A DNA stretch of 64,000 bases from Desulfonatronospira thiodismutans ASO3-1 (lineage in GTDB: Bacteria; Desulfobacterota; Desulfovibrionia; Desulfovibrionales; Desulfonatronovibrionaceae). Position numbers and translations under genes: made by a program. Positions 2,527-22,554 of this stretch are shown one piece after another; positions within the stretch are counted from its first letter, which is position 1; every line of letters starts with the position of its first letter. The stretch covers positions 1,043,658 to 1,107,657 of the forward strand of contig NZ_ACJN02000001.1 in NCBI RefSeq assembly GCF_000174435.1. The letters run 5' to 3'. Under the pieces are notes generated by a model, which was not told where the DNA came from, searched no databases, and saw nothing but the letters and a program-made list of their open reading frames with translations.

Positions 2527-2777
2527 CAACTGCCTGTGCATGCTCATCTTTTCTCCTAGGTGTCTTAAAGCCGGACTCCAAGGCAGGATATAAAGGCATG
2601 GAATATCTTGAAAAGACTAGCTAATGTGGACTTTTCACATAACCCAACAAATAAAGGGTTATTGGCAGTATTTCATCGACAAGTCATTAATAAACAATAC
2701 GCCATTACAGACTGCAGATCGTCAATTATGATTACAATTCCCCAGGACAAGTGAACAATAAAGGCTCTCCATCCGCT

Positions 2778-4235
2778 ATGACTCACAGACTCTCAAAATC
2801 CAAAATTCTTTCTGGAATCCAGTGCCCGAAAAGACTCTGGCTGGAGGTTCATAAGTCTGATCTGCTGGAGTATGATCAAAACACCCTGGCCAGGATGCAA
2901 ACAGGCCATAAGGTCGGTGAGATAGCCTGCCAGTATCTGGCCCCGGGCGGAGTGTATGTTGGTTTGGAAGAGGGCTTTGGACACGCCCTGAAGCTTACCA
3001 GAGAGCATCTTGATTCATCTGATCTGCCCATTTATGAAGCCACGTTTGTCCATGACCAGGTCATTGTGCGCACAGACATTGTCCTTCCAGGAAAGTCAGG
3101 GCTCAAGATGATCGAGGTCAAATCATCCACCAGTGTCAAGGATTATCATATCTGGGACTGCGCTGTTCAATCCTGGGTCCTGCAGGGAGCAGGCCGTCCC
3201 GTGCTGGAGATAGAGATGGCGGTTATAGATTCTTCTTTTGTTTATCCAGGAAAAGGAGATTACCAGGGTCTTCTAAGGACCGAGGATGTGACAAAGGCAG
3301 CCTTTGAAATGCGGACTCAGGTTGAAGGCTGGGTCGGGCAATTCCTGAAAACCCTCCAAGAGCCGATCCCGGCCATTGAGATGGGAGACCATTGCCGGTC
3401 TCCTTTTGAATGCCCGTTCATGGATTTCTGCTCGCCTGCCAACAGACCTGGATATCCCCTCCAATGCCTTCCACGAGTCAGTACTCAGTTACGCCAGGAG
3501 CTCATCCAGGAAGGGTTCGATGACATCCGTGATATTCCAGAGGGCAGGCTGACCAACCCCAATCATGAACGGGTCAGGAGGATCACCCTGTCTGGTGAGG
3601 CTGAATTTATGCCGGAAAAGGCCGTCCATATTAAAGCTTTTCCTTACCCCAGATATTTTCTTGATTTTGAGACCGCTCAATTAGCCGTTCCTGTCTGGGA
3701 GGGAACAAGACCATACCAGCAACTGCCCTTTCAATGGTCATGTCACATACAGGACAGACCCGGCCAGATCCGGCACGAGGAGTTCCTTGACCTTACCGGA
3801 GATCCTCCCATGAGAGGCTTTGCCCAGTCTTTACTGCTGGTTTGCCAGGAGGCCGGGCCGATATTTGTATACGGCAGTTTTGAAAAAACCATCATCCATG
3901 GACTGATTCAGCACTTACCCGACCTTGCCGGTTCTCTTCAGGCCTTGTCGGACCGGGTAGTGGACCTGCTCCCGGTTATGAGACAATGCTACTATCATCC
4001 GGAAATGCGCGGAAGCTGGTCTTTAAAGGCTGCCCTGCCATGCATTGCTCCTGACTTGGATTACTCCGCCCTGCCGGGAATCCATGACGGGGGCCAGGCC
4101 CAGGAGGCCTATGCTGAAGCTGTTGCGCCCGGCACAACACCGGAGCGCAAAGAGGAACTGCGAAGGGGGCTGACAGCTTACTGTGAAATGGATACTCTGG
4201 CCTTGGTGAGGATTGTTGAGAATCTAACTTTTTGA
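2778..4235 (+). CDS. Cas4-like nuclease fused to a DUF2779 domain
   Basis: 485 residues from the ATG at 2778; this start is preferred over the GTG at 2751 because the duplicated fragment at 1472 begins at the same codon. The N-terminal half looks like a Cas4/RecB-family nuclease: 'GIQCPKRLWL' supplies the first cysteine, 'VRTDIV' and 'KMIEVKSS' the D...ExK site, and 'CRSPFECPFMDFC' the later cysteines of a probable Fe-S cluster. The C-terminal half matches DUF2779, with 'YFLDFET' and later acidic residues resembling a DEDD-type 3'-5' exonuclease fold. No cas genes or CRISPR array are nearby, so this is a stand-alone member and its role (repair or defence) is unknown. Confidence 0.75.
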   Translation: MTHRLSKSKILSGIQCPKRLWLEVHKSDLLEYDQNTLARMQTGHKVGEIACQYLAPGGVYVGLEEGFGHALKLTREHLDSSDLPIYEATFVHDQVIVRTDIVLPGKSGLKMIEVKSSTSVKDYHIWDCAVQSWVLQGAGRPVLEIEMAVIDSSFVYPGKGDYQGLLRTEDVTKAAFEMRTQVEGWVGQFLKTLQEPIPAIEMGDHCRSPFECPFMDFCSPANRPGYPLQCLPRVSTQLRQELIQEGFDDIRDIPEGRLTNPNHERVRRITLSGEAEFMPEKAVHIKAFPYPRYFLDFETAQLAVPVWEGTRPYQQLPFQWSCHIQDRPGQIRHEEFLDLTGDPPMRGFAQSLLLVCQEAGPIFVYGSFEKTIIHGLIQHLPDLAGSLQALSDRVVDLLPVMRQCYYHPEMRGSWSLKAALPCIAPDLDYSALPGIHDGGQAQEAYAEAVAPGTTPERKEELRRGLTAYCEMDTLALVRIVENLTF

Positions 4236-4244
4236 ACTGAAAGC

Positions 4245-4652
4245 TCAATTTTTCCACTGATGATCTCGGTCTTCAATATAAGTCAGGGTGAGGCAGTTTG
4301 TGCCCTCCCTTGAAAAAGGCCTCTTGGTGCTCAGAAGTTCCTTCATAACCCAGCCTTGGGGTGTCTTCATCCTGCTTGTGTATGCGATATAATTCGGTGT
4401 TCTTTCAGTGAAGATTCTTTCCCATTTTGTCTCGATCTGGTCAGTCTTCCAGATTTGTTCAGGGTCAGGGATGAATATTATGCCGGATCTGGAGAACTGC
4501 TTGCCTGCCATGAACCTGTGTCTTAAAAGCCAGCCGCCTGGAAGTTTTTTGACATGGGTTATTTCGTGATCCGACAGGACAAAATTGCCTTTACTCCTGT
4601 TAGACCAGATCTTGGTCCAGAATTTTTCTTTGGTCTTTTTCTCCTGATTCAT
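4245..4652 (-). CDS. Small uncharacterised protein downstream of the tandem AAA ATPase
   Basis: 135 residues, basic and rich in aromatic residues, with no signal peptide or membrane segment. The ATG at 4652 follows the AAA ATPase stop by about 44 bases and has a GGGGGTAA-type ribosome site, so it is probably in the same operon. It ends tail-to-tail with the DUF2779 gene, nine bases apart. I do not recognise the family. As the only partner of the ATPase it could be an adaptor or effector of that machine. Confidence 0.55.
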   Translation of the reverse strand: MNQEKKTKEKFWTKIWSNRSKGNFVLSDHEITHVKKLPGGWLLRHRFMAGKQFSRSGIIFIPDPEQIWKTDQIETKWERIFTERTPNYIAYTSRMKTPQGWVMKELLSTKRPFSREGTNCLTLTYIEDRDHQWKN

Positions 4653-4696
4653 GTTACCCCCCTGCCGGGTTATTAAAGGTTTACCCGGCTTTACTT

Positions 4697-6913
4697 TTAA
4701 AATCCCAGCCTCTTGATGCCTTCATGTTTGTCTTTCATCCGCGTCTCAAGTTCCAGGGCCTGGATCAGGCCTGCGTGAGAAAGCTCCGACCCGGGCAGTA
4801 GTCTGTACCTGTCCCTGACCACCCGGAAATCCCCGGGAGTAAGCCTGCTTATGCCTTTCACCAGGTCCATCTCACCCCTGGTAGGTTCATTTTCCAGCAG
4901 GGGGCAGATAATCTTCCGGTAGAATATCTGCCTCCCCCGGGGATGAAGGTAATCAAACTCCACCTTGAACAGGAAGCGGCGAAGCGCGGCCCTGTCCACC
5001 CAGGAATAGTTGTTGGTGGTGCAGATCAGAATACCTTTAAACCTTTCCATGCGGACCAAAAATTCATTAACCATGTTCACTTCCCAGGATCTCTGGGCCA
5101 TGTTTCTTGAGGACAGAAAAGAATCAACTTCTTCAAAGACCAGTATGCTCTCATCCCTGGCCGCATCCTGAAAAGCGTCGGCGATATTTCGCTCATTCAT
5201 GCCAACGTAAGGGTCCAGGATATCGCTTGGGTATTTGATCAGCAGTTCACGGTCCAGCTTTTGGCCCAGGTATCTGACAAGCTCACTTTTTCCAGTGCCC
5301 GGAGGACCGTAGAAGAGAGTATTGATTCCAAAAGCTTCTTGTGATCCGGACATATTCCGGCTGAACTTCTCCATCCTGCTTGTAAAGTCTTCAAGGTCAG
5401 CCTTGAAGTTCAGTCCTTCCAGGGAATAATCCTTCTGAAGACTTTCGTTGGGCTCGGGCCTGATTCCGTCATGCAGCAGGTCCTGGTAGGCATCCAAGGA
5501 CCGGCGCACCGCAGCGTAAAACCCGTGCCTGTTCCCGGCCAGTTCCCTGGAATTAATTACGGCGGTATTCATGGCCCCGGGGGTGACGTCGTAGTCCCTG
5601 GCCAGGGTCTGGATCTGTTTTTTGGTCATCAGGGGGGCGGCCATGTTCTGATCAAGGACAGTGTTCCACAAGGCCGTTCTCTTGGAACGGTTGAATTTTT
5701 TAAACCCAAGACTGAAGGAAAATCTGCGCTTGGTGGACTCCTGGATATCCTCCACGTGGTTGGTTATCCACAAAGCCCTGATTCCGGGTCTATCCATGAA
5801 CCTGTTCAGCCACCCCTTGTCTCTGACCTCACCCTTTTGAAAAAAGGAAGACCCTGTTTCAAGAAGGGATTCGGCCTCGTCCACGATCATCAGTGCCCCC
5901 TGGCCTTCATTAGTGATATTGACGCAGGCCTGGACAGCTTTACGCAAACCATGGCCGCTGTTGTCCTCTGGATGCACTATTTCATAAGCAGGGCAGTTGA
6001 TCTTATGAGCTATGGCCCTGGCAAATGTGGTTTTTCCTGTGCCTGGGGAGCCGTACAGGAGGATATGAACCGGGGTGTTTCGCTTCTCCTTTAGCAGACC
6101 AAGAAGATGATGGATTGTTTCAGCAGGCAGAAGATGATGTTTGAGGTTAATAAAATCCTCGGCAGCCTTGACGAAATAGTTTGAGTTCAACCTGTGTGCT
6201 TTACCCTGGGCCAGAGTCCGGCTGATGTCTTCATCCAGATCCAGAAGATTGAAGTTGCGGCGCAGCAGACCCAGCTCAAACAATTGACCAGACATCGCTT
6301 CCTGGAGCTGGGAGTAGTTCAGCCCAAGGGCTCCGGCCAGGTATTTGCGGCCCGCGTAAGCCTGGCTGTCGAGATGTTCTGAAAAATAATCATCAAAAGG
6401 CTTATGCACCCCCGTCAGGAAGATAAACAGAATAAGTTCTGACTCATGTTCTGACAGCCTGAAAGTCTCCTGGATGGAGGCCAGATTTTCCAGGATGGGA
6501 CAATTAGGCTCCTGAACTGAGGACAGGTACTCATCAAGGATGATTTTGACACCCTTCAGGATATGGCCATGATGTCTCGGCTGGGTTGCCTCCAGAGCGC
6601 TGACCAGAAAGTCAACCTCCTTCCAGGCCTCAACCGTGTGAAATGTGTGGGCTCTGACCTCTCCAAGAATGCGCTCTTTTTCTTTTGTGCCCAGTCTCGA
6701 CATGAGCAGGTTTTTCAGTTCCTGGCTCCCGGCCACTATCCAATTGACGAATTCAAGGGCCGGTTCATCCATTCTCTTCATCATTTCGAGTGTTCTTCTC
6801 ATGTACACAGCCGACTTCTGCCTGATGAAAAAATCGTCCGCGTCCATTTTGAAAACACTTTCAGGTGCTCTCTCAAAGATCTGAGGTCTGCTTTCTCCCC
6901 CCGGCCCTGGCAT
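4697..6913 (-). CDS. Tandem AAA ATPase
   Basis: 738 residues with two complete AAA modules. Module 1 has Walker A 'GSPGTGKTT' near residue 291 and Walker B 'ALMIVDEAE' near 343. Module 2 has Walker A 'GPPGTGKS' near 537 and Walker B 'ILVFEEVDS' near 596, where glutamate replaces the usual aspartate. The first 280 residues are helical and unassigned. This is the COG0464-like architecture of ring ATPases that remodel proteins. The start is supported by AAAGGAGG seven bases upstream. The gene is divergent from the WYL regulator at 7037, across 123 bases containing a palindrome, which suggests the regulator controls it. Substrate and pathway are unknown. Confidence 0.75.
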   Translation of the reverse strand: MPGPGGESRPQIFERAPESVFKMDADDFFIRQKSAVYMRRTLEMMKRMDEPALEFVNWIVAGSQELKNLLMSRLGTKEKERILGEVRAHTFHTVEAWKEVDFLVSALEATQPRHHGHILKGVKIILDEYLSSVQEPNCPILENLASIQETFRLSEHESELILFIFLTGVHKPFDDYFSEHLDSQAYAGRKYLAGALGLNYSQLQEAMSGQLFELGLLRRNFNLLDLDEDISRTLAQGKAHRLNSNYFVKAAEDFINLKHHLLPAETIHHLLGLLKEKRNTPVHILLYGSPGTGKTTFARAIAHKINCPAYEIVHPEDNSGHGLRKAVQACVNITNEGQGALMIVDEAESLLETGSSFFQKGEVRDKGWLNRFMDRPGIRALWITNHVEDIQESTKRRFSFSLGFKKFNRSKRTALWNTVLDQNMAAPLMTKKQIQTLARDYDVTPGAMNTAVINSRELAGNRHGFYAAVRRSLDAYQDLLHDGIRPEPNESLQKDYSLEGLNFKADLEDFTSRMEKFSRNMSGSQEAFGINTLFYGPPGTGKSELVRYLGQKLDRELLIKYPSDILDPYVGMNERNIADAFQDAARDESILVFEEVDSFLSSRNMAQRSWEVNMVNEFLVRMERFKGILICTTNNYSWVDRAALRRFLFKVEFDYLHPRGRQIFYRKIICPLLENEPTRGEMDLVKGISRLTPGDFRVVRDRYRLLPGSELSHAGLIQALELETRMKDKHEGIKRLGF

Positions 6914-6966
6914 GACTCCTCCTTTTGTTGAGGCTGCTTATTGGGGCTGGAATTGCCAGCCGATAT

Positions 6967-6986
6967 CTGTTAACGGATATTAACAG
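6967..6986. promoter_or_regulatory. Inverted repeat in the AAA/WYL divergent promoter region
   Basis: CTGTTAA-6-TTAACAG, a perfect 7-bp inverted repeat, sits in the 123-base gap between the divergent AAA ATPase and WYL genes. A second, shorter pair (TGAC/GTCA) lies about 10 bases further on. WYL/HTH regulators commonly bind such sites next to their own gene, so this is a candidate operator. Confidence 0.4.
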
Positions 6987-7036
6987 GCTATAGTGACGTT
7001 TCTGGTCATATGTCTGAAACAATACCGGGGTGAGTT

Positions 7037-8035
7037 GTGAGGGGAAGAAATATTGTCCAGCTTCTAAGGGCCGTGGATTTGCTCAGCCAGCCGGGAGGCA
7101 GCACCATAAACCGCATGTCGGAAGCCCTGGATATCGACCGCAGGAGCGTTTACCGGCTCCTGGACATCATCCAGGCTCTGGGTTTTCCGGTTTATGACGA
7201 TATCCAGGAAATGGGCAGGGAAAAACTATGGAAAATGGATGCAGATTATGTATTGAAACTTCCCAACATCACTCTGCCCGATGTCCGGCTCAACCTTTCC
7301 GAAATCCTGGCCCTGCACCTTTTAAGGACCGAAGCCTCAATCTATGCGGGCACAGAAATTGAGGCCAGGATTGAGGCGGCCTTTTCCAAGCTGGCCCTTT
7401 TTACGCCAAAAGACTTTCAGGACCGGATTGGAAAGCTCAAGACCCTTTTTGTCTCCTCAGGAAAGTTGACCAAGGATTACACCGGCAAGGAGGAGATAAT
7501 CGATACCCTGGCCAGGGCCATGCTTAATCAGAAGACCTGCGTGATCAGCTATTTTTCATTTGTGGATGAGACCCTCAAGAGATTTCGTGTTGATCCCCTG
7601 CATTTTTTCGAGAGCAGCGGCGGGCTTTATCTGTTTGTGAGGGCCACCAGGTTCGGTGATATCCGCATTCTGGCGGTGGAGCGCATTGAATCCCTGGAAG
7701 AGCTGGGAGACTCGTTTGATTATCCGGGCGACTTTGATCCCAATGCTAAACTGTCCATGGCCTTTGACATGGTGTATGATGACCCCATGGAGCTTGAGGT
7801 GGTCTTTTCCCCGGGCCAGGCCAAGTATATCAGGGAAAGGAGGTTCTCCCCCAGTCAGGAGATAATTGACAATCCAGACGGCAGCGTGACCTTGAAGATG
7901 AGCACTTCAGGCTGGTTTGACGTCAAGAAATGGCTGCTTGGTTTCGGCGCTGAGGCTGTTGTGGTCAGGCCAGTGAAATTGAGGGATGAGATGATTGAAG
8001 AGATGGAGGCTGCTCTGGAAAGGTATGTGAAGTAG
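7037..8035 (+). CDS. HTH-WYL transcriptional regulator
   Basis: 332 residues from a GTG start. Residues about 5-55 form a winged HTH ('MSEALDIDRRSVYRLLDIIQ' is the helix-turn-helix). Residues about 145-240 form a WYL domain with the usual 'VDPLHFFESSGGLYLFVRA' strand, and the C-terminal 90 residues look like the WCX extension ('WFDVKKWLLGFGAEAVVV'). WYL regulators sense nucleic acids or nucleotides and often silence defence loci (BrxR, CapW), which is established for related families. This one is divergent from the tandem AAA ATPase and probably controls that unit and itself. A role in the BREX operon 8 kb away cannot be excluded but has no positional support. Confidence 0.8.
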   Translation: MRGRNIVQLLRAVDLLSQPGGSTINRMSEALDIDRRSVYRLLDIIQALGFPVYDDIQEMGREKLWKMDADYVLKLPNITLPDVRLNLSEILALHLLRTEASIYAGTEIEARIEAAFSKLALFTPKDFQDRIGKLKTLFVSSGKLTKDYTGKEEIIDTLARAMLNQKTCVISYFSFVDETLKRFRVDPLHFFESSGGLYLFVRATRFGDIRILAVERIESLEELGDSFDYPGDFDPNAKLSMAFDMVYDDPMELEVVFSPGQAKYIRERRFSPSQEIIDNPDGSVTLKMSTSGWFDVKKWLLGFGAEAVVVRPVKLRDEMIEEMEAALERYVK

Positions 8036-8051: not shown

Positions 8052-10400
8052 CTATTTCATATTCTTCCCGAATACGGTGTCCTTGGCCTGCTGGAATTCT
8101 TCAGGATAATTAGCCTTCAGGAATGCCGTCTGATAAGAAATCATGGCATAAGCAATACTGTGGGCTTTCAAGTATCCATATGGACCTGCTTGCTTCATCA
8201 TATCAAAGATCTGCTCTGCTGTTTTAACAGGAACATTATTTTTTTGCATTGCGCCTTTTATAAACTTTTCTTTCTGCTGTATCAGCGCTTCGGGCTTCTT
8301 CCCGACCAGGTTTTTTGCCAGTATTTCAGCATCTTCAAGGGAAAATCCAGCAATTTTATGAGCAATTGTCATCACCTGCTCATGGTAGATTATCATGCCA
8401 TGGGTTTCCTTAAGAATATCCGCCAATTCAGCATGAGCATACTCAGCCGCAACCCGACCATGCCTGCGCTTAATAAAGTTACTCAGCATTCCGCTCACCA
8501 AAGGGCCCGGCCTGTAAAGGGCAAGCATAGCTGCCAGGTCTTCCAGACGCTCTGGCTTTAATTCCCTCAGGTATTGCCGAAAACCATCGCCTTCCAATTG
8601 GAATGCCCCGTCTGTGTGACCCTGCTCTATAAGGACAAAGGTCTTTGCGTCATCTAATGGCAGACTATCCATGTCTGGAGCTTGTTTTTGGCTGGCTTTG
8701 ATCAGATCCAGGGTGCGGCTAATCAGGCTCAGATATTTCAGGCCCAGCAAATCAAACCCTGGGAAGCCCAGCCTTTCCAGGTCGTTATAGTCATATTGAG
8801 CAATAAGTTCATGGTTTCTGCCCCTGTATAAAGGCAGATAATCCTGTAAATTTTCATTGGATATCACTATTCTTGCCGCATGGCTGGTAATATGACGTAT
8901 CAACCCCTCAAGCCTTGTGCAGATATCAAAACACCTCTGCATCTTTTCATTGTCATTCATTATGCTGCGCAAAGCTGGTTCCATTTCCATGGCTTTACTG
9001 ATGGTCATGCCCGGTTCCTGGGGAATAAGCTGGATAATCCGTTCTGCCTGTTCCGGACTTATTCCTATAACCAAGCTCACATCTCTGAAAACTGTTCTGG
9101 CTCTCATGCATATAAAAACAGAAATGTATACCACACTGTTCTGACCGTATTTTTCAAACACATAATCAAAAACTTCTTGCCGGCGCTCCTGACATAAATC
9201 CACATCAATATCCACAACACCTGCTCGTTTAGTATTACAGAATCTTTCAAAATGAAGTTTATGCAGAATCGGGTCAATGCCGGTAATCCCAAGGGCATAA
9301 GCTGTCATGCAGCCCGGAGCTGAACCCCGGCCAGGCCCAACAGCGATACCCCTGCTCCTTGCCCACGCAACATAGTCATAAACCACAAGAAAATACCAAG
9401 ACTTGCCTTGTTCGCAGAGAATTTTCAATTCTTTATCAAGCCGGGTGAAATATTTTTCCCTGTCAACTTTGTAAGGCAGAGTGGCCAGCTTTTCATCAAG
9501 GCCGTTGAGGGCCAGAGCAGTAAGTTCCTTATCAAGGGTATCTTCAATAGTCGGCTTATATCTTGGCAGGTGTCTTTTCGGGGAATCCAGATCAAGGTTG
9601 CATTGCTCAACGATTTTGTGGACATTTTCCAGGGCGGTGGGACAATAGGAGAACTCCTTTTCCATTTCTTCAGGTGACTTGAAATACAGCTCTCTTGTGT
9701 CCAGATTATCCAGGTCTTGTTCATCAAGACGTTCCGCATTTTTGATGCACTTTAATACTGCATGTGCTTCAGCATCCTGGGGAGTGAGATATCTGCAATC
9801 ATTGGCAGCCACAATGGGCAAGCCTGTCTTTTCGGACAGTTCCATCAATCTGTCATTAACCTCTGCCTGTTCATTATATCCGCTTGCCTCAAGCTCAAGA
9901 TAAAATCTGTCCGGATAAATCCGGGCATATTGCATTGCTGCTTCAAGGCCTTGATCAAAACCTTTTGCCCGAAGCAGATACTGGACCTCTCCTTTCAGGC
10001 AGGCTGAAAGAGCAATGATGCCGTCTGAATATTTCTGAAGCATATCCTTATCCACCCGGGGCTTGTAGTAAAAACCCTGCAACCAGCCGGCACTGACCAG
10101 TTTGACCAGATTATGGTATCCACGCAGGTCCATAGCCAGCAGCACCAGATGATAATTGAATTTGTCCCGGTCAGTAACTTTTCCGGGAACCAGGTTGATC
10201 TCACAGCCTATGATGGGCTTTATGCCGTATTCCCGGGCCGCTGAGTACAATTTCATGGCCCCATAAAGGTTGCCGCTGTCAGTAATGCTTACAGCAGGCA
10301 TTTTATACTCAGCAGCTTTGGAGCAAAGCTCCTCAATCCTTATGCATCCTTCAAACAGACTGTATTCGGTATGACAGTGCAGATGTGCAAATTCTGACAT
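8052..10400 (-). CDS. Short DNA polymerase III alpha subunit-like protein
   Basis: 782 residues, against about 1,100-1,200 for replicative DnaE. The N-terminal PHP domain begins 'HLHCHTEYSLFEG'. The palm has 'VGPGRGSAPG', the catalytic pair 'VDIDVDL', and the third aspartate in 'FDLLGLK'; fingers follow to 'SYQTAFLKANYPEEF'. The protein then stops: the HhH DNA-binding, OB-fold and tau-binding domains are missing. All residues I can check in the polymerase site are intact and there are no internal stops. A GGGAGGT ribosome site precedes the ATG. It ends 16 bases from the convergent WYL gene with no terminator. It may be a dedicated accessory polymerase or a recently truncated second dnaE copy; it is unlikely to be the replicase. 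Confidence 0.7.
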   Translation of the reverse strand: MSEFAHLHCHTEYSLFEGCIRIEELCSKAAEYKMPAVSITDSGNLYGAMKLYSAAREYGIKPIIGCEINLVPGKVTDRDKFNYHLVLLAMDLRGYHNLVKLVSAGWLQGFYYKPRVDKDMLQKYSDGIIALSACLKGEVQYLLRAKGFDQGLEAAMQYARIYPDRFYLELEASGYNEQAEVNDRLMELSEKTGLPIVAANDCRYLTPQDAEAHAVLKCIKNAERLDEQDLDNLDTRELYFKSPEEMEKEFSYCPTALENVHKIVEQCNLDLDSPKRHLPRYKPTIEDTLDKELTALALNGLDEKLATLPYKVDREKYFTRLDKELKILCEQGKSWYFLVVYDYVAWARSRGIAVGPGRGSAPGCMTAYALGITGIDPILHKLHFERFCNTKRAGVVDIDVDLCQERRQEVFDYVFEKYGQNSVVYISVFICMRARTVFRDVSLVIGISPEQAERIIQLIPQEPGMTISKAMEMEPALRSIMNDNEKMQRCFDICTRLEGLIRHITSHAARIVISNENLQDYLPLYRGRNHELIAQYDYNDLERLGFPGFDLLGLKYLSLISRTLDLIKASQKQAPDMDSLPLDDAKTFVLIEQGHTDGAFQLEGDGFRQYLRELKPERLEDLAAMLALYRPGPLVSGMLSNFIKRRHGRVAAEYAHAELADILKETHGMIIYHEQVMTIAHKIAGFSLEDAEILAKNLVGKKPEALIQQKEKFIKGAMQKNNVPVKTAEQIFDMMKQAGPYGYLKAHSIAYAMISYQTAFLKANYPEEFQQAKDTVFGKNMK

Positions 10401-10636
10401 GGTTCTACCTCCCTTTGCGCTTAGACAACATTTTGATTCTGGCGGTTTTATGGTTTGAAAAAAGCATAAGTGCTCAGGACCTTTGGTATTGACTACCCAG
10501 CCAGCATTTATTCACTGAGAAAAAATCCATTGCTTCCTTGCTTGGGGCTGAGTATAACAGGCAGGTATGACAAAAGTGGTCATATTAAGATTTTTTTTGA
10601 AGAATTATTGCTCAAAACTTTTAGACTGGGGTTTTG

Positions 10637-11014
10637 ATGAATATTATCAGTTCCTCCGATATGGAGATTTACCGGAAATCCGCCAGAAAAAGGCTGCAGG
10701 CTCTCCGTGAAAGCAGGCGCATCCGGCATGAACATGCCTGGGATGTGGCTCGCAGGGCTGCATCTCTGTTAAGAGAGCACTTTGCAGCTTCTCGTGTTGT
10801 AGTGTTCGGTTCCCTGTTACGTCCGGAAGTGTTTGATGAACGTTCTGACGTGGATCTGGCGGTCTGGGGAGTGGCAGATGAAAAGTACCTCCGGGCGGTG
10901 GCCGCAGTAACCGCCCTGGACAAAGAAATCAGTGTGGACCTGATCAAGATGGAGCCAGGACTTCAGAGCAATACTGCCATCAGCAGTCAGGTAGAAACGG
11001 GAGTGGAGATATGA
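10637..11014 (+). CDS. MNT-type nucleotidyltransferase antitoxin
   Basis: 125 residues from the ATG at 10637. It has the minimal nucleotidyltransferase signature: 'VVVFGSLLRP' (G-S at residues 58-59) followed by 'SDVDLAV' (D-x-D at 71-73). The family (MntA) neutralises HEPN ribonucleases, in characterised cases by AMPylating them. The stop overlaps the start of the HEPN gene in an ATGA, the usual layout of these pairs. The N-terminal 40 residues are basic and helical, longer than in the smallest MNT proteins. Confidence 0.75.
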   Translation: MNIISSSDMEIYRKSARKRLQALRESRRIRHEHAWDVARRAASLLREHFAASRVVVFGSLLRPEVFDERSDVDLAVWGVADEKYLRAVAAVTALDKEISVDLIKMEPGLQSNTAISSQVETGVEI

Positions 11015-11505
11015 AACTGGAGACCGGCTCTTACCAGGCCCTGGCGGGAAGACTGCAAATGAGGATACAGGATTTGGACCTGGTGGTGCAGCGGATTGCC
11101 CTTTTGATGACAAAGGCTGAAGAAACCGCTGATGATGGCTACCTGGACGGAGTGGCCCTCAATCTACACAGCTTTTATACCGGGATGGAATCCTGCTTTG
11201 AGGAGATTGCCCGCACAATTGATGGGGCTTTACCTTCCGGATCCAATTGGCATCAGGAATTGCTTCAGCAGATGTCCGCCGACTTGAGGGATTTGCGTCC
11301 TGCGGTTATCAGGCGCAGTACCAGAGATTGCTTAGACGAGTACCGGGCTTTTCGCCATCTGGTCAGAAACGTCTACACCTTCAACCTCAAGCCGGAAAGG
11401 CTGAAATATCTGGCTTCAGATGCAGGGACATGTTTTGAAGACTGCAAGCAGGATATAGAGAGTTTTTTAGGCTTTCTACGAGCTTTATCTCAACAATCTG
11501 ATTAG
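11011..11505 (+). CDS. HepT-like HEPN ribonuclease toxin
   Basis: 164 residues, all-helical, translationally coupled to the MNT gene by a four-base overlap. The region 'EYRAFRHLVRNVYTFNL' (about residues 110-126) is the conserved patch of HepT-like proteins and contains the arginine/histidine cluster expected for the RNase site, although the textbook R-x(4-6)-H spacing is not exact. The pair is probably a toxin-antitoxin or abortive-infection module acting on RNA. It follows a 236-base gap from dnaE and is likely transcribed alone with its antitoxin. Confidence 0.65.
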   Translation: MKLETGSYQALAGRLQMRIQDLDLVVQRIALLMTKAEETADDGYLDGVALNLHSFYTGMESCFEEIARTIDGALPSGSNWHQELLQQMSADLRDLRPAVIRRSTRDCLDEYRAFRHLVRNVYTFNLKPERLKYLASDAGTCFEDCKQDIESFLGFLRALSQQSD

Positions 11506-11710: not shown

Positions 11711-11846
11711 ATAGTTTAGCTATTTACATGTTGCACGGGGACTGGCTCTCCCAGCCCTTGATTTATTAAGTCTGTGTTTTACATCAACAACAAAACAAGG
11801 GCTGGGGTGCCTGTCCCCTGCTTTCCTTAGAAAAGGGCTAAACTAT
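11711..11846. repeat. 136-bp palindromic mini-element
   Basis: The ends ATAGTTTAGC (11711-11720) and GCTAAACTAT (11837-11846) are perfect 10-bp inverted repeats. Nested inside is a second pair: GGGGACTGGC and CCAGCCCTTG on the left face CAAGGGCTGG and GCCTGTCCCC on the right. The arrangement is MITE-like. The element abuts the stop codon of the nuclease gene that follows; its last base is the first base of the TCA (stop on the minus strand). The bases upstream (11506-11710) hold more GGGGACTG/CCTGTCCCC-type repeats and no gene I can support. Confidence 0.55.
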
Positions 11847-12865
11847 CACCTTATTTCAAGGTACGTATTCAACTCCTTTGCTAAGTTTTCAGCCTCATCT
11901 TTTGAGAGATATGGAACCTTAATTGTCCGAGCCCAGAAAAAACTCATTCCTGTAATTTCAGAGACCATCCCAAACGGCATAGCCTTTATAGTTTGTCCTT
12001 TCTTTGGAACTGGTGTGATGAATTCAACATCCCGATAAGAAGTTGCGTCGTCCGGTGAATTTATGCTGCCCTTCTTAACTCGGCCGGCAGCGACAAGACC
12101 TGTCCATCTGTGTGAAAAGAAAACGATATCACCGGGGTAAACGTATTCAACAAACCGTTTCGCACCCCCAAAGGCAGCCACCCGATTATTTTCCATCATG
12201 TACCAAATTGCATCCTCGTCCCAGCTCCTGTTGGTATCGAACAATACTCCCTTTTCATGACCAGGATTAATATGGCGATCATAAGGTAAGGTGAAAAACT
12301 CGAAATATTTCTCATCATTTATTTCATAAATTCTATACGGAAGAAACTTGATTGAAATGCCTTGATGTTTCCAGTAATCAACAGCATTGATCAGGTTATC
12401 GTCAGCGGCACTGCCAATTATGATCAGATGTTGTTTTTTGTTCAGTTCCTTTGCATCTAAGGGCTGCTCAAGCTTGAATGCCTCCTTATGCGCCAGGGGC
12501 AAGTCGCTGCTACTGTTGGAGTACTGGTTGAATTTTTGCTGAAGCGTAGAAAACGTCCATTGTCCTGCATCTTGTGCATATCGCAAAGCTTGATAAACGG
12601 CTCCTTCGCCTGCCGCACCCCCCTTTAATTCAAAAATAATGAGTTCACCTTTTTTGTTTAATGCGTAAATATCAGCTTCAGATTGATATTGTCGTTCCTG
12701 GAATATTGGCATTAAGCCGCCATCTTCAAAAAGAATATCCAGAATGCTCTCAGCAATTAGCTCCTCCAGGTCTTTTTCTAAACTACCAAAGCTTGAAAAA
12801 TCCTTGAATGCTACAGGGTCTATTCTGTCGAAATTACCGTGGGTTGATCGTAGTTTGTATAGCAT
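11846..12865 (-). CDS. NucS-like nuclease with PUA/EVE-like C-terminal domain
   Basis: 339 residues. An N-terminal helical segment ('LEELIAESILDILFE') and 'EADIYALNKKGELIIFELKG' form the acidic and E-x-K strands of a NucS/DUF91-type PD-(D/E)XK fold (about residues 30-90). Residues 215-330 ('YPGDIVFFSHRWTGLVAAGRV' region) have the beta-rich pattern of a PUA/EVE-like domain, a fold that reads modified bases. The combination suggests a modification-dependent nuclease, which is inference. The start is supported by AAGGAGGAGA upstream. The stop codon lies at the edge of the palindromic element at 11711-11846, so the 3' end may have been trimmed by that insertion. Confidence 0.55.
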   Translation of the reverse strand: MLYKLRSTHGNFDRIDPVAFKDFSSFGSLEKDLEELIAESILDILFEDGGLMPIFQERQYQSEADIYALNKKGELIIFELKGGAAGEGAVYQALRYAQDAGQWTFSTLQQKFNQYSNSSSDLPLAHKEAFKLEQPLDAKELNKKQHLIIIGSAADDNLINAVDYWKHQGISIKFLPYRIYEINDEKYFEFFTLPYDRHINPGHEKGVLFDTNRSWDEDAIWYMMENNRVAAFGGAKRFVEYVYPGDIVFFSHRWTGLVAAGRVKKGSINSPDDATSYRDVEFITPVPKKGQTIKAMPFGMVSEITGMSFFWARTIKVPYLSKDEAENLAKELNTYLEIR

Positions 12866-13944: not shown

Positions 13945-14821
13945 TTAAATATCAGGATAAATATCCCAAAATAGCCTATTTTCGGAGCTTAGAAGCCCCA
14001 TTTTACCCTCAAAAACATCATTGTAAGCCGATACAGGTTCTTTCAGTGCGTACATCCCTGACTTGCCTACTTCATGAACCCTGCGGCCGCAAGCTCTGCC
14101 GCCAAGCATTTCCTTGACCTTTTCGACAAAATCTTTGCAGCCCACTGCAACACCTTCAGTCCAGTCGGCTTGCCTTGGAGTTCTCTCATCCAATGTTGTC
14201 TGAACCCATCCAGACTAAATCCCTGATAAACCATCATCGATATCCAGGAGTTTTTGCAAGAGATCCCTGTTGATAAACCGGCATCTTTGCTGGGGCTCGA
14301 CTATTTCAGGGTATCCCCCGTGACTCCACTCATTGGGATGCTTAACCACTCTGGACCTGACCATATTCAAGTCTATATAGACCAGACATCGAACAAGGTG
14401 TTCATCAACATCCACTGCTGTAGCGTGATACCTGTCTTCCCAGAAAGCCCCCTTACGCTTCTTCCTTTGATTGTATTCCTGGCCTGTCCTGCCAGCTATC
14501 AATTGTAGCGATCTGGGTATAGCATCTTTGTCTTCATGACCGTGTACCGGCAAGTGAATATGACCTGTCCCGTTAAATTTTTACCCCGTGAAGCTTTCTT
14601 TTGCTTTACTGGGGCCGAAGGACAGCGCAGCGCATTTAACTGGGATTCGAGGTAACCGTATAGTTCAATACCTGTAGCCCATACCTTTTTTTGGCTTCAA
14701 ACAACCATTTTACCCATGTGCTACGGTCCTTGGCGAATTTAAGCAAGAATTCCTTTTTATGGCATCTATGGGTAATATGCCATACATGATCAGGCAAAAA
14801 ATATCTGTTGGCTCTGGGCAT
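13945..14821 (-). pseudogene. REP-associated tyrosine transposase (RAYT), broken
   Basis: The N-terminus 'MPRANRYFLPDHVWHITHRC' and 'YGLQVLNYTVTSN' are typical RAYT (Y1_Tnp) motifs. The HUH motif follows as 'HIHLPV', but an 82-base insertion (14563-14644) separates it from 'TSN' and shifts the frame. Downstream 'GAFWEDRYHATAV' and 'YIDLNMVR' hold the catalytic-tyrosine region. An in-frame TAG at 14215-14217 then interrupts the C-terminal domain ('WTEGVAVGCKDFVEKVK' to 'ENRLFW'). RAYTs are HUH single-strand transposases that mobilise REP hairpins. With two independent lesions this copy is inactive. Confidence 0.85.
14563..14644. repeat. 82-bp palindromic insertion inside the RAYT HUH motif
   Basis: Its ends are near-inverted repeats: TCCCGTTAAAT on the left against ATTTAACTGGG on the right. 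Removing it joins 'TSN' directly to 'HIHL', restoring the expected RAYT motif. It is too short to encode anything and looks like a REP- or MITE-type insertion. Confidence 0.6.
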
Positions 14822-16331: not shown

Positions 16332-18377
16332 TTAATCCGCAATAGCCTTCATAAAAGCATCCCTGGCGTCAGAGTAAAATTGAATGTCTATTTTGGTGGC
16401 CATGTCGTCTGAGAGGTCGATGAGCTGACGGCGGCAGGATACAGGCATGAGCAGGGCCACAGCCCCCTTTTCCACTGCAATTTCGGCCATGGATACAGCA
16501 TTGTGTATGGGCTCTATAGATCCGCCGAGATTAATTTCGCCGCATATGACCAGTCCTCCCCGGACACTTTTTCTTACCAGAGAAGTGCACAGGGCAATCA
16601 GGGCCGGTACGCCCAGCTTCGCTCCGGACCTGGCAGCATCAAAGGCCCTTAGCTGCACAGTATACTCATGGCTTCTGGGGTCCTTGTCCCCAACCAGCTG
16701 GGCGGCTCTGGAATACAGGTTCTGCTCTGCATAGCCCATGCTTTCCTTGAATGCAGGCGGTACTGGCTTGTTTAGAATTTTAATCCCGGATCCAGGACCG
16801 GAGTTGACTTCTACCCTGTAAAGGCCTGGATTTTCATTTTCTATTCCCGGGCTTATGGCCCAGACCTGTCCGGGCTCCAAGGGATCGGCCCCGATACTGT
16901 TTTCGCTGTGCAGTTCCGGAGTAGACACAAATTTTTCCACTCCATCAGTTCCGATGGTGTAGCTGAAATGGGTATTTCTGTATTCGGCAGCACCAATGCG
17001 TTTTTGTTGTTCCTTGATCCTGCGCCTGCTCTCCAGGGCTATCTGAGTGGCCCACTCCAGCTCCTCATCGGGGATTTCCAAAGGATCCTGGGGGTACAGG
17101 AGCTTGAGTAATCCGCTTATGGTCTTGTTGACAGCATTGCTGTCCCGTCCGGAAAGGGCTCCCCCGAAAAACACTCTGTTCTGCAAAAGGTTGACCCGGC
17201 TTTCATCCCGAAGTCTGCTCCAGCATTCAGACAGAAAATCGCTTACCAGGCCGAAATGGTCGGTAAGATATTTTTTGCTGATTTTGGGAATATCCCAGCC
17301 GGGCAGATAGGCGTGCAGGCGATCCATAAAGGCCGTGTCGTCCCGCATTTCCTGGGGCATGGGACCAAACAGGTGCCCGATACGCTGCTGGTGTTCAACA
17401 TCCACTTCAAAATTACCCACCATGACAATGGAGCCGTCAGCCCTGATGCTGTCCCTGCCGCGACTGAACTCCCCGGACTCCATGTACCCCTTCATGATGT
17501 TTACTCCGTCCTTTTGATCAAAGGAGATGCCGGAGATTTCATCAAAGCAGACCACATCGTACTGGCATACCAGGCCTCGCTGACCAGTGCCCATATGGAC
17601 GAACATCCTGGCCACTGTGGCCTTGCCCCCGGAAATAAGATGGGCATAGGGCGATACCTGCTGAAAAAGGTGGCTTTTTCCTGTGCCCCTGGGACCCAGC
17701 TCCACCATATTGTAGTTGCGTTCCACAAAGGGAACCATCCTGAGCATAAAGGCGTTTTTTTGTCTCGGGGAGAGGGTGGAGGCCTCTAAACCAATGGAGC
17801 GCAGCAGAAAGTCTTTCCATTCTTCCGTGCTGAAATGTTTTCTGGCTTCAGCCAGATGGTCCAATACGTCCCTCTGGGAGAGCTGGATCTCTCGCAGGGC
17901 CTCGACTCCGAAAGGCCGTCCGTTTTTTTCCTGGGCAATATACGGGTCATAGCTCAGGGTAATTTCTGCGTAGAAGCCGCCGGTAAGCATTCTTTCATTC
18001 TTTATCACCAGCTCGGGATCAATGCGCACATCTGTCAGCCTCAGGCTGGGCAGTGCAGTTATATAAGAATCTGTTCTGGCATCCAACCTTGCGGTTATGG
18101 AGTCAATAATCTTGACCTGTCCAGCCTCCTTGGCCCTGGCCTTGAAAAGTTCTTCCTCGCCGGCCTTAACGGTCCTTGATTTGAGCTGCTTCTGGACAAT
18201 TTCCAGGCCTTCCTCTATCTCTTCCCATTCCACACTGGCGCAATAACGCCCCAGCAGAAACTCCACCACATAGGTGGGCACTGGAAACTGCCTGCTGAAA
18301 GTACGCACCAGATCTTTGCGTACCAAGTATCCATCAAGGACCTGGGAAGCCTTCTTGTCCAGATAGTCAAGTTCCAT
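16332..18377 (-). CDS. brxL: BrxL, Lon-like protease/ATPase of type 1 BREX
   Basis: 681 residues. Walker A 'GPRGTGKSHL' lies near residue 231 and Walker B 'VVCFDEISG' near 279. The C-terminal Lon-protease-like domain contains 'RSGAKLGVPAL' (region of the catalytic serine) and 'GEINLGGSIEPI' followed by 'VEKGAVALLMP' (lysine region). BrxL is the last core gene of type 1 BREX; known members form DNA-binding hexamer/dodecamer rings. It starts 15 bases after pglZ and closes the operon. All core motifs are present, so it is probably functional. Confidence 0.9.
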   Translation of the reverse strand: MELDYLDKKASQVLDGYLVRKDLVRTFSRQFPVPTYVVEFLLGRYCASVEWEEIEEGLEIVQKQLKSRTVKAGEEELFKARAKEAGQVKIIDSITARLDARTDSYITALPSLRLTDVRIDPELVIKNERMLTGGFYAEITLSYDPYIAQEKNGRPFGVEALREIQLSQRDVLDHLAEARKHFSTEEWKDFLLRSIGLEASTLSPRQKNAFMLRMVPFVERNYNMVELGPRGTGKSHLFQQVSPYAHLISGGKATVARMFVHMGTGQRGLVCQYDVVCFDEISGISFDQKDGVNIMKGYMESGEFSRGRDSIRADGSIVMVGNFEVDVEHQQRIGHLFGPMPQEMRDDTAFMDRLHAYLPGWDIPKISKKYLTDHFGLVSDFLSECWSRLRDESRVNLLQNRVFFGGALSGRDSNAVNKTISGLLKLLYPQDPLEIPDEELEWATQIALESRRRIKEQQKRIGAAEYRNTHFSYTIGTDGVEKFVSTPELHSENSIGADPLEPGQVWAISPGIENENPGLYRVEVNSGPGSGIKILNKPVPPAFKESMGYAEQNLYSRAAQLVGDKDPRSHEYTVQLRAFDAARSGAKLGVPALIALCTSLVRKSVRGGLVICGEINLGGSIEPIHNAVSMAEIAVEKGAVALLMPVSCRRQLIDLSDDMATKIDIQFYSDARDAFMKAIAD

Positions 18378-18392
18378 GTCTTATCCCCAATA

Positions 18393-20765
18393 TCAGCCGC
18401 CGATGATGGTCGAAGTCTGAGAAATCAGCTGGCCTTCAGCATTGATCAGTACGATATGAGCCTCCTGGCCCTCAAACTGTTCATCCTCCACCACGACCGA
18501 AGCAGAGCCATCCTTTTTCAAAAGTTTGAGCTTGAGCACCAGGCTGGATGAAGCCTCTCCAGGGCTGGTACGCACGTCCAGCCATAAATCCTGGGTCCAC
18601 CCCTCAACGACGACTGTGCAACGCAAACCCTTCCATACCACATCCATCAACTGCAGTGATTCTTCCGCCCGGGCAGCAGGTCCGGCAAAGACGGTTAGCT
18701 TCAACAGAAGGCATTCCTGCAGGCTCAAGCCTCCGTGAGAATACTCATCATTCCTGCGAAAACAGCTTATGCCATCAGCCAGGGCAAAATGTCTGTCTGG
18801 ATTCCAGTACCAGGGGTACAGATTTTCATCTGTGTCCGCCCCGGACTTGATGACCGCGCACCGGCTCCATTTGGTCTGGGTCAAGGCCCTGGGCAGTTCA
18901 ATCTTGGGCAGTCCACCGGGGAGCAAAAGCCAGCCGTGATCGGTCACCACCCTGATGGCTGTCCAGCCGGCTTGAATAAGGTCCTCGATGCGATCCCTGA
19001 CTTCCCTGAGCAGGCGATCCACATGAGCGGACAGTTTCCATCCCCATTCGTGGCCTTCATGGTCAATGTCTCCAAATTCAACCCACAATTTTTTGACCTC
19101 CAGTTCTGAAATCCGGGGCAAAGGGTCATTCTGCCTGCAAACGGTCCACTGGTTTTCCTGAAGGAGTTTTTTAAAGTGATGCGCTGTGCACGGTTCGAAG
19201 TTTTCCTGCGAAGCCTGGGCAGCAGAAATGTGTCCGGCTACCGGGGAGGCTGCCGGCTTTCCTGTGGCTGTGACGCTTGGCAGAGCCGCCCAGCCAAGCT
19301 GCCTGGATACACTGATACCTTTTTCTTCCAGCAGCGTCTGCAAACGCCTGGCGCAGTCGAAACGCAGTCCATCCACAAACAGACAGCATTCAAAATATAC
19401 TTCCTGTTCTTCCTGCACATGGCTTACGGAATGTTCTTTCAGCCACAACCGCTGTAAATGTCGGGAACTTTCCTGAGACCAGGGCAGGTAGACCGTTCTC
19501 AGAGCAGAACTGAGGGCTTCAAAATCCTCCTGTCTGTGGACACAGGCCAGGGCTCTTAAAAGAGCATCGTCTGCTTCCCAGCCCCAGTCAGAATATCCAG
19601 CAGCCAGATCAGATAATGTCCCAGCAGCCAGGGTATTCCTGGTGACTTCGGCCATTACAGCCAGGTGCTTCAAAGACATGGCCAGGGGAGACAAGCCCAG
19701 TTCAGCCCAGACGTAATTGCGCCGCGAGGCATGAATCTTTTCCAGCTCGATTATTTCCTGTCTGGCATTATGGGCTGGCAGTTCCTTCAGACCAGAGAGA
19801 TTTTCTCTCAGGTTTTTCTCCTGTTGTTCGTTCCATTGCGGCCAACCTGGAAATTCGCCGCCTACATACCACATAAGAGACCCTGCCGGCGGCCTGCATT
19901 TTCTTATCTGCCCGGGGATACCCGGATATCTGTGCGGTGCTTCCCTGTATCTGGACCAGACGGAACGCCACTGGTTTTTCTGTTGGGCCAGGTTGTGGGC
20001 TGCTGTAAGCACGCCCTGTTTTTGAGGGTCAAATCCAAACTGGGACTTGCAGACCTGGACGAATGCTTCCCAATGGTTTTTATCCAGCCTGTTTCTAAAA
20101 TCGTCCGGGGCGCTGATCCATTGCAAAAGATCGCGAACAGGGTCACCACCGGAAAGAAGATTGTGGAAATAGTCTTTATCCAGCCGCTTGCACTCAAGCA
20201 GGTCCACATCTTCGTCAAGCAAGGGCATAAGCGCTGTACGGATGGCTCTTTTGGTCTCACTGTCCCGGGCTACATCCAGGCCGAGACCTCCCTGGTCCGA
20301 TTTGAGGAAAGCCAGAATGGTCCAGTCTTTGGCATTGACCTGGGACCAGATGACCCCCCGGTACTGCAGCTCAGCCAGGGGCTTTAAGGAATCCGGACAG
20401 CTCTCTACTGCCCTCAAATCCTGCCGGCTTACTCCCGGCAGATAAATGACAGGTGTAGCACCGCTGTGAACAACAGGAAATTGTGAGTTCAGGGATTCAG
20501 ATACAGGGGCATCACAAACCTGCTCTACATTCGCGCTGGAAAAAAGAATTACGCATCTAAGCCAGATGGCTGGGCCGGTACGCTGTTCAGGGCTGTATTT
20601 TCCAAGAACGAAAAGCTCGGGCATTTCCTGCAGAAGCCTGTTCACAGCCGGTTCCCATTGTCTGTCCCAATCCGGCCATAATATGCAGGACGGAGCAGCC
20701 TGAACTTCGGGGTTATACAGGGCTGCATCCCGAATGGAGCGCAAGATGTGGTCTATTACTCGCAT
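18393..20765 (-). CDS. pglZ: PglZ, alkaline-phosphatase-fold protein of BREX
   Basis: 790 residues from the ATG at 20765 ('MRVIDHILRSIRDAAL'), a better start than the frame opening at 20807, which lies inside the preceding gene. The phosphatase-superfamily core shows 'CLFVDGLRFDCARRL' (metal-binding aspartates, about residue 465) and 'VVTDHGWLLLPGG' (D-H metal ligands, about residue 609). The upstream DUF4276 stop is five bases before this ATG. PglZ is the signature protein of all BREX types and is required for host methylation in studied systems. Confidence 0.9.
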   Translation of the reverse strand: MRVIDHILRSIRDAALYNPEVQAAPSCILWPDWDRQWEPAVNRLLQEMPELFVLGKYSPEQRTGPAIWLRCVILFSSANVEQVCDAPVSESLNSQFPVVHSGATPVIYLPGVSRQDLRAVESCPDSLKPLAELQYRGVIWSQVNAKDWTILAFLKSDQGGLGLDVARDSETKRAIRTALMPLLDEDVDLLECKRLDKDYFHNLLSGGDPVRDLLQWISAPDDFRNRLDKNHWEAFVQVCKSQFGFDPQKQGVLTAAHNLAQQKNQWRSVWSRYREAPHRYPGIPGQIRKCRPPAGSLMWYVGGEFPGWPQWNEQQEKNLRENLSGLKELPAHNARQEIIELEKIHASRRNYVWAELGLSPLAMSLKHLAVMAEVTRNTLAAGTLSDLAAGYSDWGWEADDALLRALACVHRQEDFEALSSALRTVYLPWSQESSRHLQRLWLKEHSVSHVQEEQEVYFECCLFVDGLRFDCARRLQTLLEEKGISVSRQLGWAALPSVTATGKPAASPVAGHISAAQASQENFEPCTAHHFKKLLQENQWTVCRQNDPLPRISELEVKKLWVEFGDIDHEGHEWGWKLSAHVDRLLREVRDRIEDLIQAGWTAIRVVTDHGWLLLPGGLPKIELPRALTQTKWSRCAVIKSGADTDENLYPWYWNPDRHFALADGISCFRRNDEYSHGGLSLQECLLLKLTVFAGPAARAEESLQLMDVVWKGLRCTVVVEGWTQDLWLDVRTSPGEASSSLVLKLKLLKKDGSASVVVEDEQFEGQEAHIVLINAEGQLISQTSTIIGG

Positions 20766-20770
20766 ATGTT

Positions 20771-21442
20771 TTATCCTGCTGTGATCTTTTCTATACGGGA
20801 CAGCCAATCATGAAATAGAGGACATTCCTTGCGGATAATATCCAACCCTATTTCCAGAGCGGCCAAAAGGCCATGAAGGGGTTTTTCATACTCAGAACAC
20901 AGTTTTTGTATGCGCTTGCTGGGTGCAAATTCATATCTGTCGTTAATTTCTTCAGGTGAATTGAACTGATCTCTAATTTTCAAAAAATGCTGCGTAAGTT
21001 TTTGGTGGTACATTCCCCGAGCCATGGCAGCAGGGTCACTGAAAAGCAACCCTTCGAATTCATGCATCTGCACGTATGGGATAAAACGGCGCATAGGTTC
21101 AGGTCCAAGCTTTTCTTCCAGATGCTCAGATATTGACATAATCACGCAGTTGAATTTCTGTTCGTGGTCATTGTATTTCCCTGCCTCTGATTTGCCGGGA
21201 AAGTCTCCAGGCAGACCGTAATAATCAAAAAATGTAGTGCAATAGGCTGCTTTATCTCCGAGCAGCTTGTTTCGAATATCTTTGTATAGCCTTTCAAAAC
21301 GAAGATTTCCCCCCTTGTGACCAGGTTTACCGATGAGGGCAGGTTGAGCCAGGACATTTATGGAGGCCAGTGAGTGTACAAGCAATTCGTTGACGAAACG
21401 TTCCTCGGTTTGCCCCTCGCATATGACATGCACCCGGATCAT
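20771..21442 (-). CDS. DUF4276 Toprim-like protein inserted in the BREX operon
   Basis: 223 residues from the ATG at 21442, overlapping the ATPase stop by four bases (ATGA). Toprim-like landmarks are present: the N-terminal acidic strand 'VICEGQTEERFVNELL', then 'TTFFDYYGLPGDFPG', then 'YVQMHEFEGLLFSDP', all typical of DUF4276. Related Toprim-like DUF4435 proteins (AriB of PARIS) are tRNA nucleases released by a partner ABC-type ATPase, and OLD nucleases combine both parts in one chain. The partner ATPase is directly upstream. A nuclease effector role is inferred from this architecture. Confidence 0.75.
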   Translation of the reverse strand: MIRVHVICEGQTEERFVNELLVHSLASINVLAQPALIGKPGHKGGNLRFERLYKDIRNKLLGDKAAYCTTFFDYYGLPGDFPGKSEAGKYNDHEQKFNCVIMSISEHLEEKLGPEPMRRFIPYVQMHEFEGLLFSDPAAMARGMYHQKLTQHFLKIRDQFNSPEEINDRYEFAPSKRIQKLCSEYEKPLHGLLAALEIGLDIIRKECPLFHDWLSRIEKITAG

Positions 21443-22554
21443 GAGCGTGGCCTCCCACCCAGGATATTCTTTTCCCACAGTTCTCCTATGGAATAATCTT
21501 CCAGCCAGGAAATGAACTCTTCTTGATTATAACGATTAAAAACAGTGGCCTCTTGCTTGCGCTCAACTACCACTAGATCGTTAATGGAAAATTCGTTTAC
21601 CAGAGGCACTGACTGGGTGGATACAATAACCTGCATTCGCTTGGATGCCGAGCGAAACATGGAACCCAGCAGGGAGATGGCATAAGGGTGCAGTCCCAGC
21701 TCCGGTTCATCGATGATGATTGTCGATGGTGGGTCAGGCTGCAAAAGAGCGGTAGCCAGACAGATAAAGCGAAGAGACCCGTCCGAAAGTTGGCTGGGCC
21801 AAAAGGCGTAGTCACTATCCTTTTGCTTCCACAACAGGCGGATCTGCTTTTCCTCAGAGGGCAAAGTCTGAGGTTTGAAGGTAAAGTCATCAAAAAAGGG
21901 AATGACCAGTTGGATGGTTTTGCGTATTTGCTGGTAAATATTCGGATGTTCCTCTGCCATGCGGTATAAGAAGGCAGCCAGATTGGATGCGTCCGGACGC
22001 AGGTAATCATTGTCGTGCAGAGCCCCCAGGCGCTTCATTCCGGCTGTGTCACTGGTATCATGGAAATGAAATACCTTCCAGCTGGAAATGGAGCTGTAGC
22101 AGTAATCTGCTGTTGAGCCAGGTTTGCATGTATTATAGTATTCTTTTAGTTTTGCCTCTGAATGTCCAGAACCTAAGTCCGTCCAGGAAGGACCGTAATA
22201 AGGTCCCTGGAAAAACAGTTTTTCTTTTGCAAAGGAAAACCCTCCTTCCACCGTTGGTTCCAGAGAAAACATGTAACCGTTTAATGCAAACTCGATAAAG
22301 GACTCCAGCCGGGTTGTCTCCTTGACCCCAAAGCTCATTATACGATCCGCCGAGCCCTTGATGCGGGTCCATTTCTGCAGCCTCCCTTCCACCATCTCGC
22401 CCAACATATGAAAATAGGTCATCAGATTGCTTTTGCCCGCACCATTGGAACCAATAAACACGTTCAGCATGCCCAGGGGAAAGCGATCCATGTTCTGGAT
22501 GGACATGAAGCCCTTGATAGTCAGGTAATCAATAGACTTTTTAGTTGTACTCAT
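21439..22554 (-). CDS. AAA/ABC-type ATPase paired with DUF4276
   Basis: 371 residues. Walker A 'GSNGAGKSN' is at residues 35-43 and the ABC-type Walker B 'IIIDEPELGLHP' is near 283, followed by 'QVIVSTQSVPLV' (H-loop region with glutamine in place of histidine). This is the AAA_15/AAA_21 fold of OLD, RecF and PARIS AriA. The start overlaps the pglX stop by 14 bases, and the stop overlaps the DUF4276 start. It is thus locked into the BREX operon between pglX and pglZ, a position that is not part of the canonical type 1 order. Confidence 0.8.
   Translation of the reverse strand: MSTTKKSIDYLTIKGFMSIQNMDRFPLGMLNVFIGSNGAGKSNLMTYFHMLGEMVEGRLQKWTRIKGSADRIMSFGVKETTRLESFIEFALNGYMFSLEPTVEGGFSFAKEKLFFQGPYYGPSWTDLGSGHSEAKLKEYYNTCKPGSTADYCYSSISSWKVFHFHDTSDTAGMKRLGALHDNDYLRPDASNLAAFLYRMAEEHPNIYQQIRKTIQLVIPFFDDFTFKPQTLPSEEKQIRLLWKQKDSDYAFWPSQLSDGSLRFICLATALLQPDPPSTIIIDEPELGLHPYAISLLGSMFRSASKRMQVIVSTQSVPLVNEFSINDLVVVERKQEATVFNRYNQEEFISWLEDYSIGELWEKNILGGRPRS

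Follow-up and report, generated by a model that had tools for sequence, protein, structure and literature searches.

A short DnaE1 paralogue without C-terminal domains in a defence island of Desulfonatronospira thiodismutans

We analysed a 64,000-nt stretch of the genome of Desulfonatronospira thiodismutans ASO3-1 (hereafter the window; contig NZ_ACJN02000001.1, positions 1,043,658 to 1,107,657), which contains a short dnaE gene (Table 1). A preliminary description of this DNA had reported an open frame of 782 residues without naming its strand; the frame proved exact, and the gene lies on the minus strand. The host genome (4.1 Mb, 5 contigs) contained three DnaE-type genes, namely the window copy, a second short copy ~36 kb from it, and a full-length DnaE of 1156 aa on another contig, so that a complete dnaE does exist elsewhere in the genome. 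The strong Shine-Dalgarno sequence ahead of the window copy was also kept ahead of the second paralogue and of a copy found in another genus (G010).

Table 1. Genes and signals at the short dnaE locus and at related loci. Positions refer to the window unless a locus or contig is named.
Feature	Position	Strand	Remarks
DUF2779/Cas4-like protein	2751..4235	plus	80% identical paralogue near the second short dnaE
135-aa protein	4245..4652	minus	3' of the AAA gene; related proteins encoded at the second locus and on G010 contig C126
Double-AAA ATPase, weakly IetA-like	4697..6913	minus	
WYL/WCX regulator, BrxR-like architecture	7037..8035	plus	convergent; 16-base gap to the stop of dnaE
Short DnaE1 paralogue, 782 aa	8052..10400	minus	open frame, 782 codons
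Shine-Dalgarno sequence GGGAGGT	10407..10413	minus	before the ATG of the short dnaE
MNT-type nucleotidyltransferase	10634..11014	plus	divergent from dnaE; common to the G010 copy
HepT-like partner (PF20797)	11011..11505	plus	
Candidate defence nuclease, PADLOC PDC-S11 type, weak NucS similarity	11846..12865	minus	94% identical in G010
BREX type-1 genes	16332..26074	minus	mark the island
BrxL	16332..18377	minus	
PglZ	18393..20807	minus	
PglX	22541..26074	minus	
138-aa protein gene	L004:10482-10898	minus	after the second short dnaE
138-aa protein gene	G010 contig C126, ~19585-20001	minus	after the G010 short dnaE

In the 782-aa protein, Pfam recognized PHP (residues 6-172), DNA_pol3_alpha (292-553) and DNA_pol3_finger (557-721), and no domain C-terminal of the last. 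The best full-length DnaE model aligned through its positions 5-778 of 1146 with residues 3-772 of the window protein, bearing out the earlier estimate that about 370 C-terminal residues (HhH, OB, tau-binding) are absent. The protein thus consists of PHP (~1-275), palm and thumb (~276-556), fingers (~557-770) and an unrelated tail of 10 residues, and is devoid of (HhH)2, the clamp motif, the OB fold and the tau-binding domain (CTD). Its AlphaFold2 model had a mean pLDDT of 91.8 and superposed on Pol III alpha structures as far as E. coli residue 795 (Z 44-51), so that the fold of PHP, palm, thumb and most of the fingers is predicted to be intact.

Short copies were also found outside the host genome. 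The second copy of the host (775 aa from the conserved start) shared 67% identity with the window copy, and a third, of 779 aa and 88% identical, was present in G010, another genus of the same family; a fourth was found in G037, which belongs to another family. Since the homologue in another genus matched with E=0 in the same frame and with the same end point, the window gene is more than a chance observation. Among the window, second and G010 copies, homology ran through the motif YPEEF and stopped a few residues later, giving way to unrelated tails of at most ~10 residues, and the G037 copy terminated four residues past YPEEF, in the same alignment column as the others. No frame 3' of any of the four copies resembled the missing C-terminus, and the C-terminal half was found once per genome, only within full-length dnaE. 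A split gene or an intein was accordingly ruled out, as no C-terminal fragment occurs elsewhere in the genome, and so was an assembly or frameshift artefact, as independent genomes share the end point and no remnant follows in any frame. The preliminary description had also considered that the gene was trimmed at its junction with the convergent WYL gene. That gene does lie 16 bases away (stops at 8035 and 8052), but two relatives without a 3' WYL gene terminate at the same place and only the window copy adjoins WYL at its 3' end, indicating that this junction did not make the truncation.

The DNA match between the window and G010 took in dnaE, both MNT/HepT genes and a portion of the nuclease gene beyond them. 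The two short genes differed by a dS of 0.18, whereas the full-length genes of the same two genera differed by a dS of ~1.5, indicating that the short gene moved horizontally. A full-length DnaE occupying this locus between these flanks was not found; the 88% identical relative has one flank in common and is itself short. Profile searches were run on 297 genomes from the order and 395 from the phylum, and in each genome the two or three best candidates were scored; among the matches listed there was no further member of the short group. Intact short DnaE was present in at least three of ~700 genomes examined, and the family is rare. Two further genomes, both from one family, carried degenerate relatives, one of 485 aa with the polymerase core deleted (G033) and the other broken into pieces (G045). 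A phage origin was rejected, as none of the best 80 of 408 IMG/VR relatives was short where a frame could be extracted; the shortest, of 858 aa, ran off its contig, and the shortest complete one had ~917 aa. Likewise rejected was a plasmid origin: all three plasmid matches with an annotated dnaE that we examined were full-length, and for a fourth no gene was listed under the match.

The active site had been described as intact, which holds for the three catalytic aspartates and not for the PHP ligands or for other invariant polymerase residues. The window DnaE retained the equivalents of E. coli D401, D403 and D555, as well as D405, and all three catalytic aspartates were kept in each of the three copies of its family. 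On the other hand, three of the nine PHP metal ligands, at the positions listed in PMC3666897, were replaced (D17E, H42S and H202R, numbered as in the full-length DnaE of this genome), so that positions 3, 4 and 9 read E, S and R in the window copy, the second paralogue and G010 alike. In the G037 copy, positions 3, 4 and 8 read N, F and N; the change at position 8 is the weakest of these, because N is found there in other PHP domains (PMC3666897). Thus, all four short copies had three ligands replaced, while all nine were kept in 37 of 37 aligned full-length sequences, and PMC3919608 and PMC3666897 describe these ligands as highly conserved in deltaproteobacterial DnaE1. In the polymerase part of the window copy, Gly stood in place of the invariant K that neighbours the third aspartate (E. 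coli K553), SAAG was changed to SAPG with the loss of one A, GFNKSH had lost its F and N, and the RR motif of the fingers was also altered. The set of invariant residues lost differed in part from copy to copy. The G037 copy had lost two of the three catalytic aspartates (D403 to E and D555 to T), positions that PMC3919608 describes as absolutely conserved across the whole C-family.

These residues bear on the suggestion, made in the preliminary description, of a specialised polymerase tied to repair or defence. Such a putative enzyme would be distributive, lack proofreading, act independently of clamp and tau, and serve repair or gap filling during defence; the aspartates kept throughout the window's family suggest that these copies could still polymerise, and the predicted fold would allow it. 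However, the substitutions around the active site of the window copy and the catalytically dead G037 copy speak against catalysis as the shared function, and the PHP-Pol3-(HhH)2 core, which PMC3919608 describes as almost universal among C-family polymerases, is incomplete here. Also, as described before for dnaN, imuB and lexA, no such gene, imuA or other SOS partner was among the adjoining genes identified. We therefore regard a specialised polymerase as unlikely.

We built a tree from 766 core columns. The three short copies of the window's family formed a clade (100/100) attached to that family's own DnaE1, and the G037 copy attached, on a very long branch, to the DnaE1 of its own family (100/100). 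Forcing all short copies together was rejected (delta logL 63.7, AU p=0.0007). The sequences thus suggest that duplication and truncation of dnaE1 probably happened twice, and since similar stubs seem to have arisen twice, the recurrent loss of the C-terminal part was probably not accidental. The claim of two origins, as distinct from the question of function, would fall if a single ancient short DnaE had spread by transfer and been partly over-written by gene conversion, so that the families only look independent. When the fingers (residues 557-768, the last ~210) were taken alone, one short clade was not rejected and the logL difference was near zero, so that conversion at the 3' end is possible. 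However, residues 1-430 and residues 431-768 each disfavoured a single short clade, and the PHP part of the G037 copy shared 63% identity with the full-length DnaE of its own genome and 50% with the other short copies, making an origin common to all of them improbable.

Between the window and G010 copies, dS was 0.176 and dN 0.072, giving a dN/dS of 0.41, which is below 1 (Fisher p=4e-9); between the window and second copies dN/dS was 0.28. Over the same core, full-length DnaE gave 0.05-0.10, indicating that selection on the short gene is relaxed 3-5 fold relative to the replicase and yet clearly constrains it. At codons where the other two copies agree, the window copy had acquired 22 synonymous and 24 non-synonymous changes since its split from G010 (dN/dS ~0.3, a ratio calculated by hand), and no premature stop had arisen across 775-782 codons at dS of 0.18 and 0.78. 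The other suggestion of the preliminary description, a decaying duplicate, has to be weighed here. Under this explanation dnaE1 was duplicated and truncated and is being lost while hitch-hiking with selected neighbours in a mobile defence island, consistent with the relaxed selection, with the partly different invariant residues lost in each copy, with the degenerate G033 and G045 copies and with the aspartates missing from G037. The dN/dS well below neutral for the whole gene and for the window-specific changes, the frames free of stops, the conserved Shine-Dalgarno sequence and the end point identical in two lineages all point the other way. Given the intact frames, the measurable selection and the recurrent end point, the short DnaE is not just debris; slow decay is nonetheless a serious rival, even though we think it somewhat unlikely.

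The defence neighbourhood noted earlier extends to the relatives that end at the same position: every short copy with readable flanks was located in a defence island, and the neighbours varied among the copies. PADLOC assigned the short DnaE to no family, while its neighbours did match. The WYL gene, the divergent double-AAA ATPase gene and the gene of the 135-aa protein occur as a trio twice in the genome, at window 4245-8035 and at G000:C1 999545-1003308 near the second dnaE copy, and are a candidate defence module of their own. WYL was rejected as a specific partner of dnaE, as its pairing with the AAA gene is seen at both loci and also where a genome has no short DnaE; it more likely belongs with the AAA gene. 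The DUF2779 protein and its paralogue (L004:1153-2610) form a pair in the same defence region, and window 1472-1567, similar to the N-terminus of such a protein, is perhaps the remnant of a third. Between the two dnaE loci lies another defence system (L005:4438-9065), comprising a helicase-like protein with strong ZacC similarity in PADLOC beside PLD-like and DUF6361 genes. Short repeated stretches of 88-100% identity were shared between window 14805-16174 and the region upstream at L004/L005, and are possibly repeat elements that aid shuffling of the island.

Two further genes were associated with other copies. The 138-aa gene followed two of the three short copies of the window's family, the window copy being without it, and was present in none of the other genomes among 348 of the class. 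The proteins of the two loci were 75% identical with a dN/dS of 0.14; they matched nothing in Pfam or PHROG, had no IMG/VR or plasmid relative, and were modelled poorly (pLDDT 40). A metallo-beta-lactamase with an RMMBL domain was encoded 3.8 kb from the second copy and ~6 kb from the G010 copy. Of 297 genomes from the order, 4 encoded close homologues of it (at least 66%), and a short or degenerate DnaE was present in every one of these; the chance that three of four independently found genomes coincide out of 297 is ~4e-6, as calculated by hand with relatedness ignored. In G033 and G045 this gene adjoins the degenerate DnaE relative and is preceded by a nuclease-like gene. In G033 (L047:11039-14611) the three genes overlap on one strand, with the nuclease-like gene first, the metallo-beta-lactamase gene second and the degenerate DnaE last, and in G045 (L166:9364-11946) the first two are intact and DnaE is in pieces. 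The nuclease-like protein appeared PD-(D/E)XK-like by eye and had no Pfam match. A broader proposal, that bacteria repeatedly turned their own replicase subunit into an exonuclease-dead mimic consisting of PHP and polymerase core, detached from the replisome and acting in defence islands as a decoy or sensor for phage replication proteins with the 138-aa protein as partner and a metallo-beta-lactamase/PD-(D/E)XK module, is speculative, and we give it little weight.

By descent the window protein belongs to the DnaE1 (Pol III alpha) group, forming with its relatives a clade on the family's own full-length DnaE1 (support 100). It is 50-60% identical to this parent over residues 1-768, shares the PHP-palm-thumb-fingers fold and keeps the three catalytic aspartates, and differs from it in having no complete PHP-Pol3-(HhH)2 core, no clamp motif, OB or CTD, an incomplete set of PHP ligands, lost invariant residues and an island location. 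DnaE2/ImuC of the SOS mutasome is likewise an accessory polymerase without the tau-binding domain and with a mostly degenerate PHP, but it keeps HhH and usually OB, whereas the window gene falls within its own family's DnaE1; with no mutasome gene identified nearby, it was not assigned to DnaE2/ImuC. Cyanobacteria have a split DnaE whose N-terminal fragment is of similar length to the window protein. The window protein differs in that it carries no intein and that no detached C-terminal fragment is encoded in its genome.

Extra, fast-evolving DnaE copies beside a normal replicative DnaE have been reported as DnaEX (Timinskas et al., PMC3919608); those described mostly have known architectures, or a UDG domain replacing OB and CTD, and none is described there with an end before (HhH)2. 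The same paper describes a second DnaE1 in Desulfococcus oleovorans, also a deltaproteobacterial second copy with an altered C-terminus (a Lar-like domain), but there only the CTD is replaced. More generally, the passages considered here of two Pol III alpha surveys (PMC3919608, PMC12926913) describe loss of CTD and OB, diverged extra copies (DnaEX) and domain swaps, and mention neither a DnaE ending before (HhH)2 nor a link to defence islands. In the literature, we found no description of DnaE in defence islands or of such a short family, and a survey devoted to WYL/BrxR-linked defence loci makes no mention of it.

Without (HhH)2, the clamp motif, OB and the tau-binding domain, and with a broken PHP site, the short DnaE is not a replicase. 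We propose, with a probability of about 0.4, that it is a DnaE derivative lacking the exonuclease and uncoupled from the replisome, which is retained in the defence island to mimic the replicase or act as a sensor, a function that we infer from its fold. The gene is a duplicate of its own family's dnaE1 from which (HhH)2, the clamp-binding motif, OB and the tau-binding domain, all of the sequence beyond the core fingers, have been lost, and it now travels between bacteria within defence islands. Its product would lack PHP proofreading as well as any way to join clamp, SSB or tau, and hence could not be a processive replicase; any leftover DNA synthesis would be distributive and error-prone. 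Instead, it may be kept for what its fold binds, either primer-template DNA or phage proteins that block replication by targeting DnaE. The link to phage is suggested by the location of the gene.

If this reading is right, the short DnaE is a concrete candidate case of a core replication protein that serves in defence. Paralogues that have dropped (HhH)2, apparently twice, that end at the same residue, that have once lost the catalytic aspartates and that are still under selection in islands suggest that the core of a replicase may be reused beyond replication.
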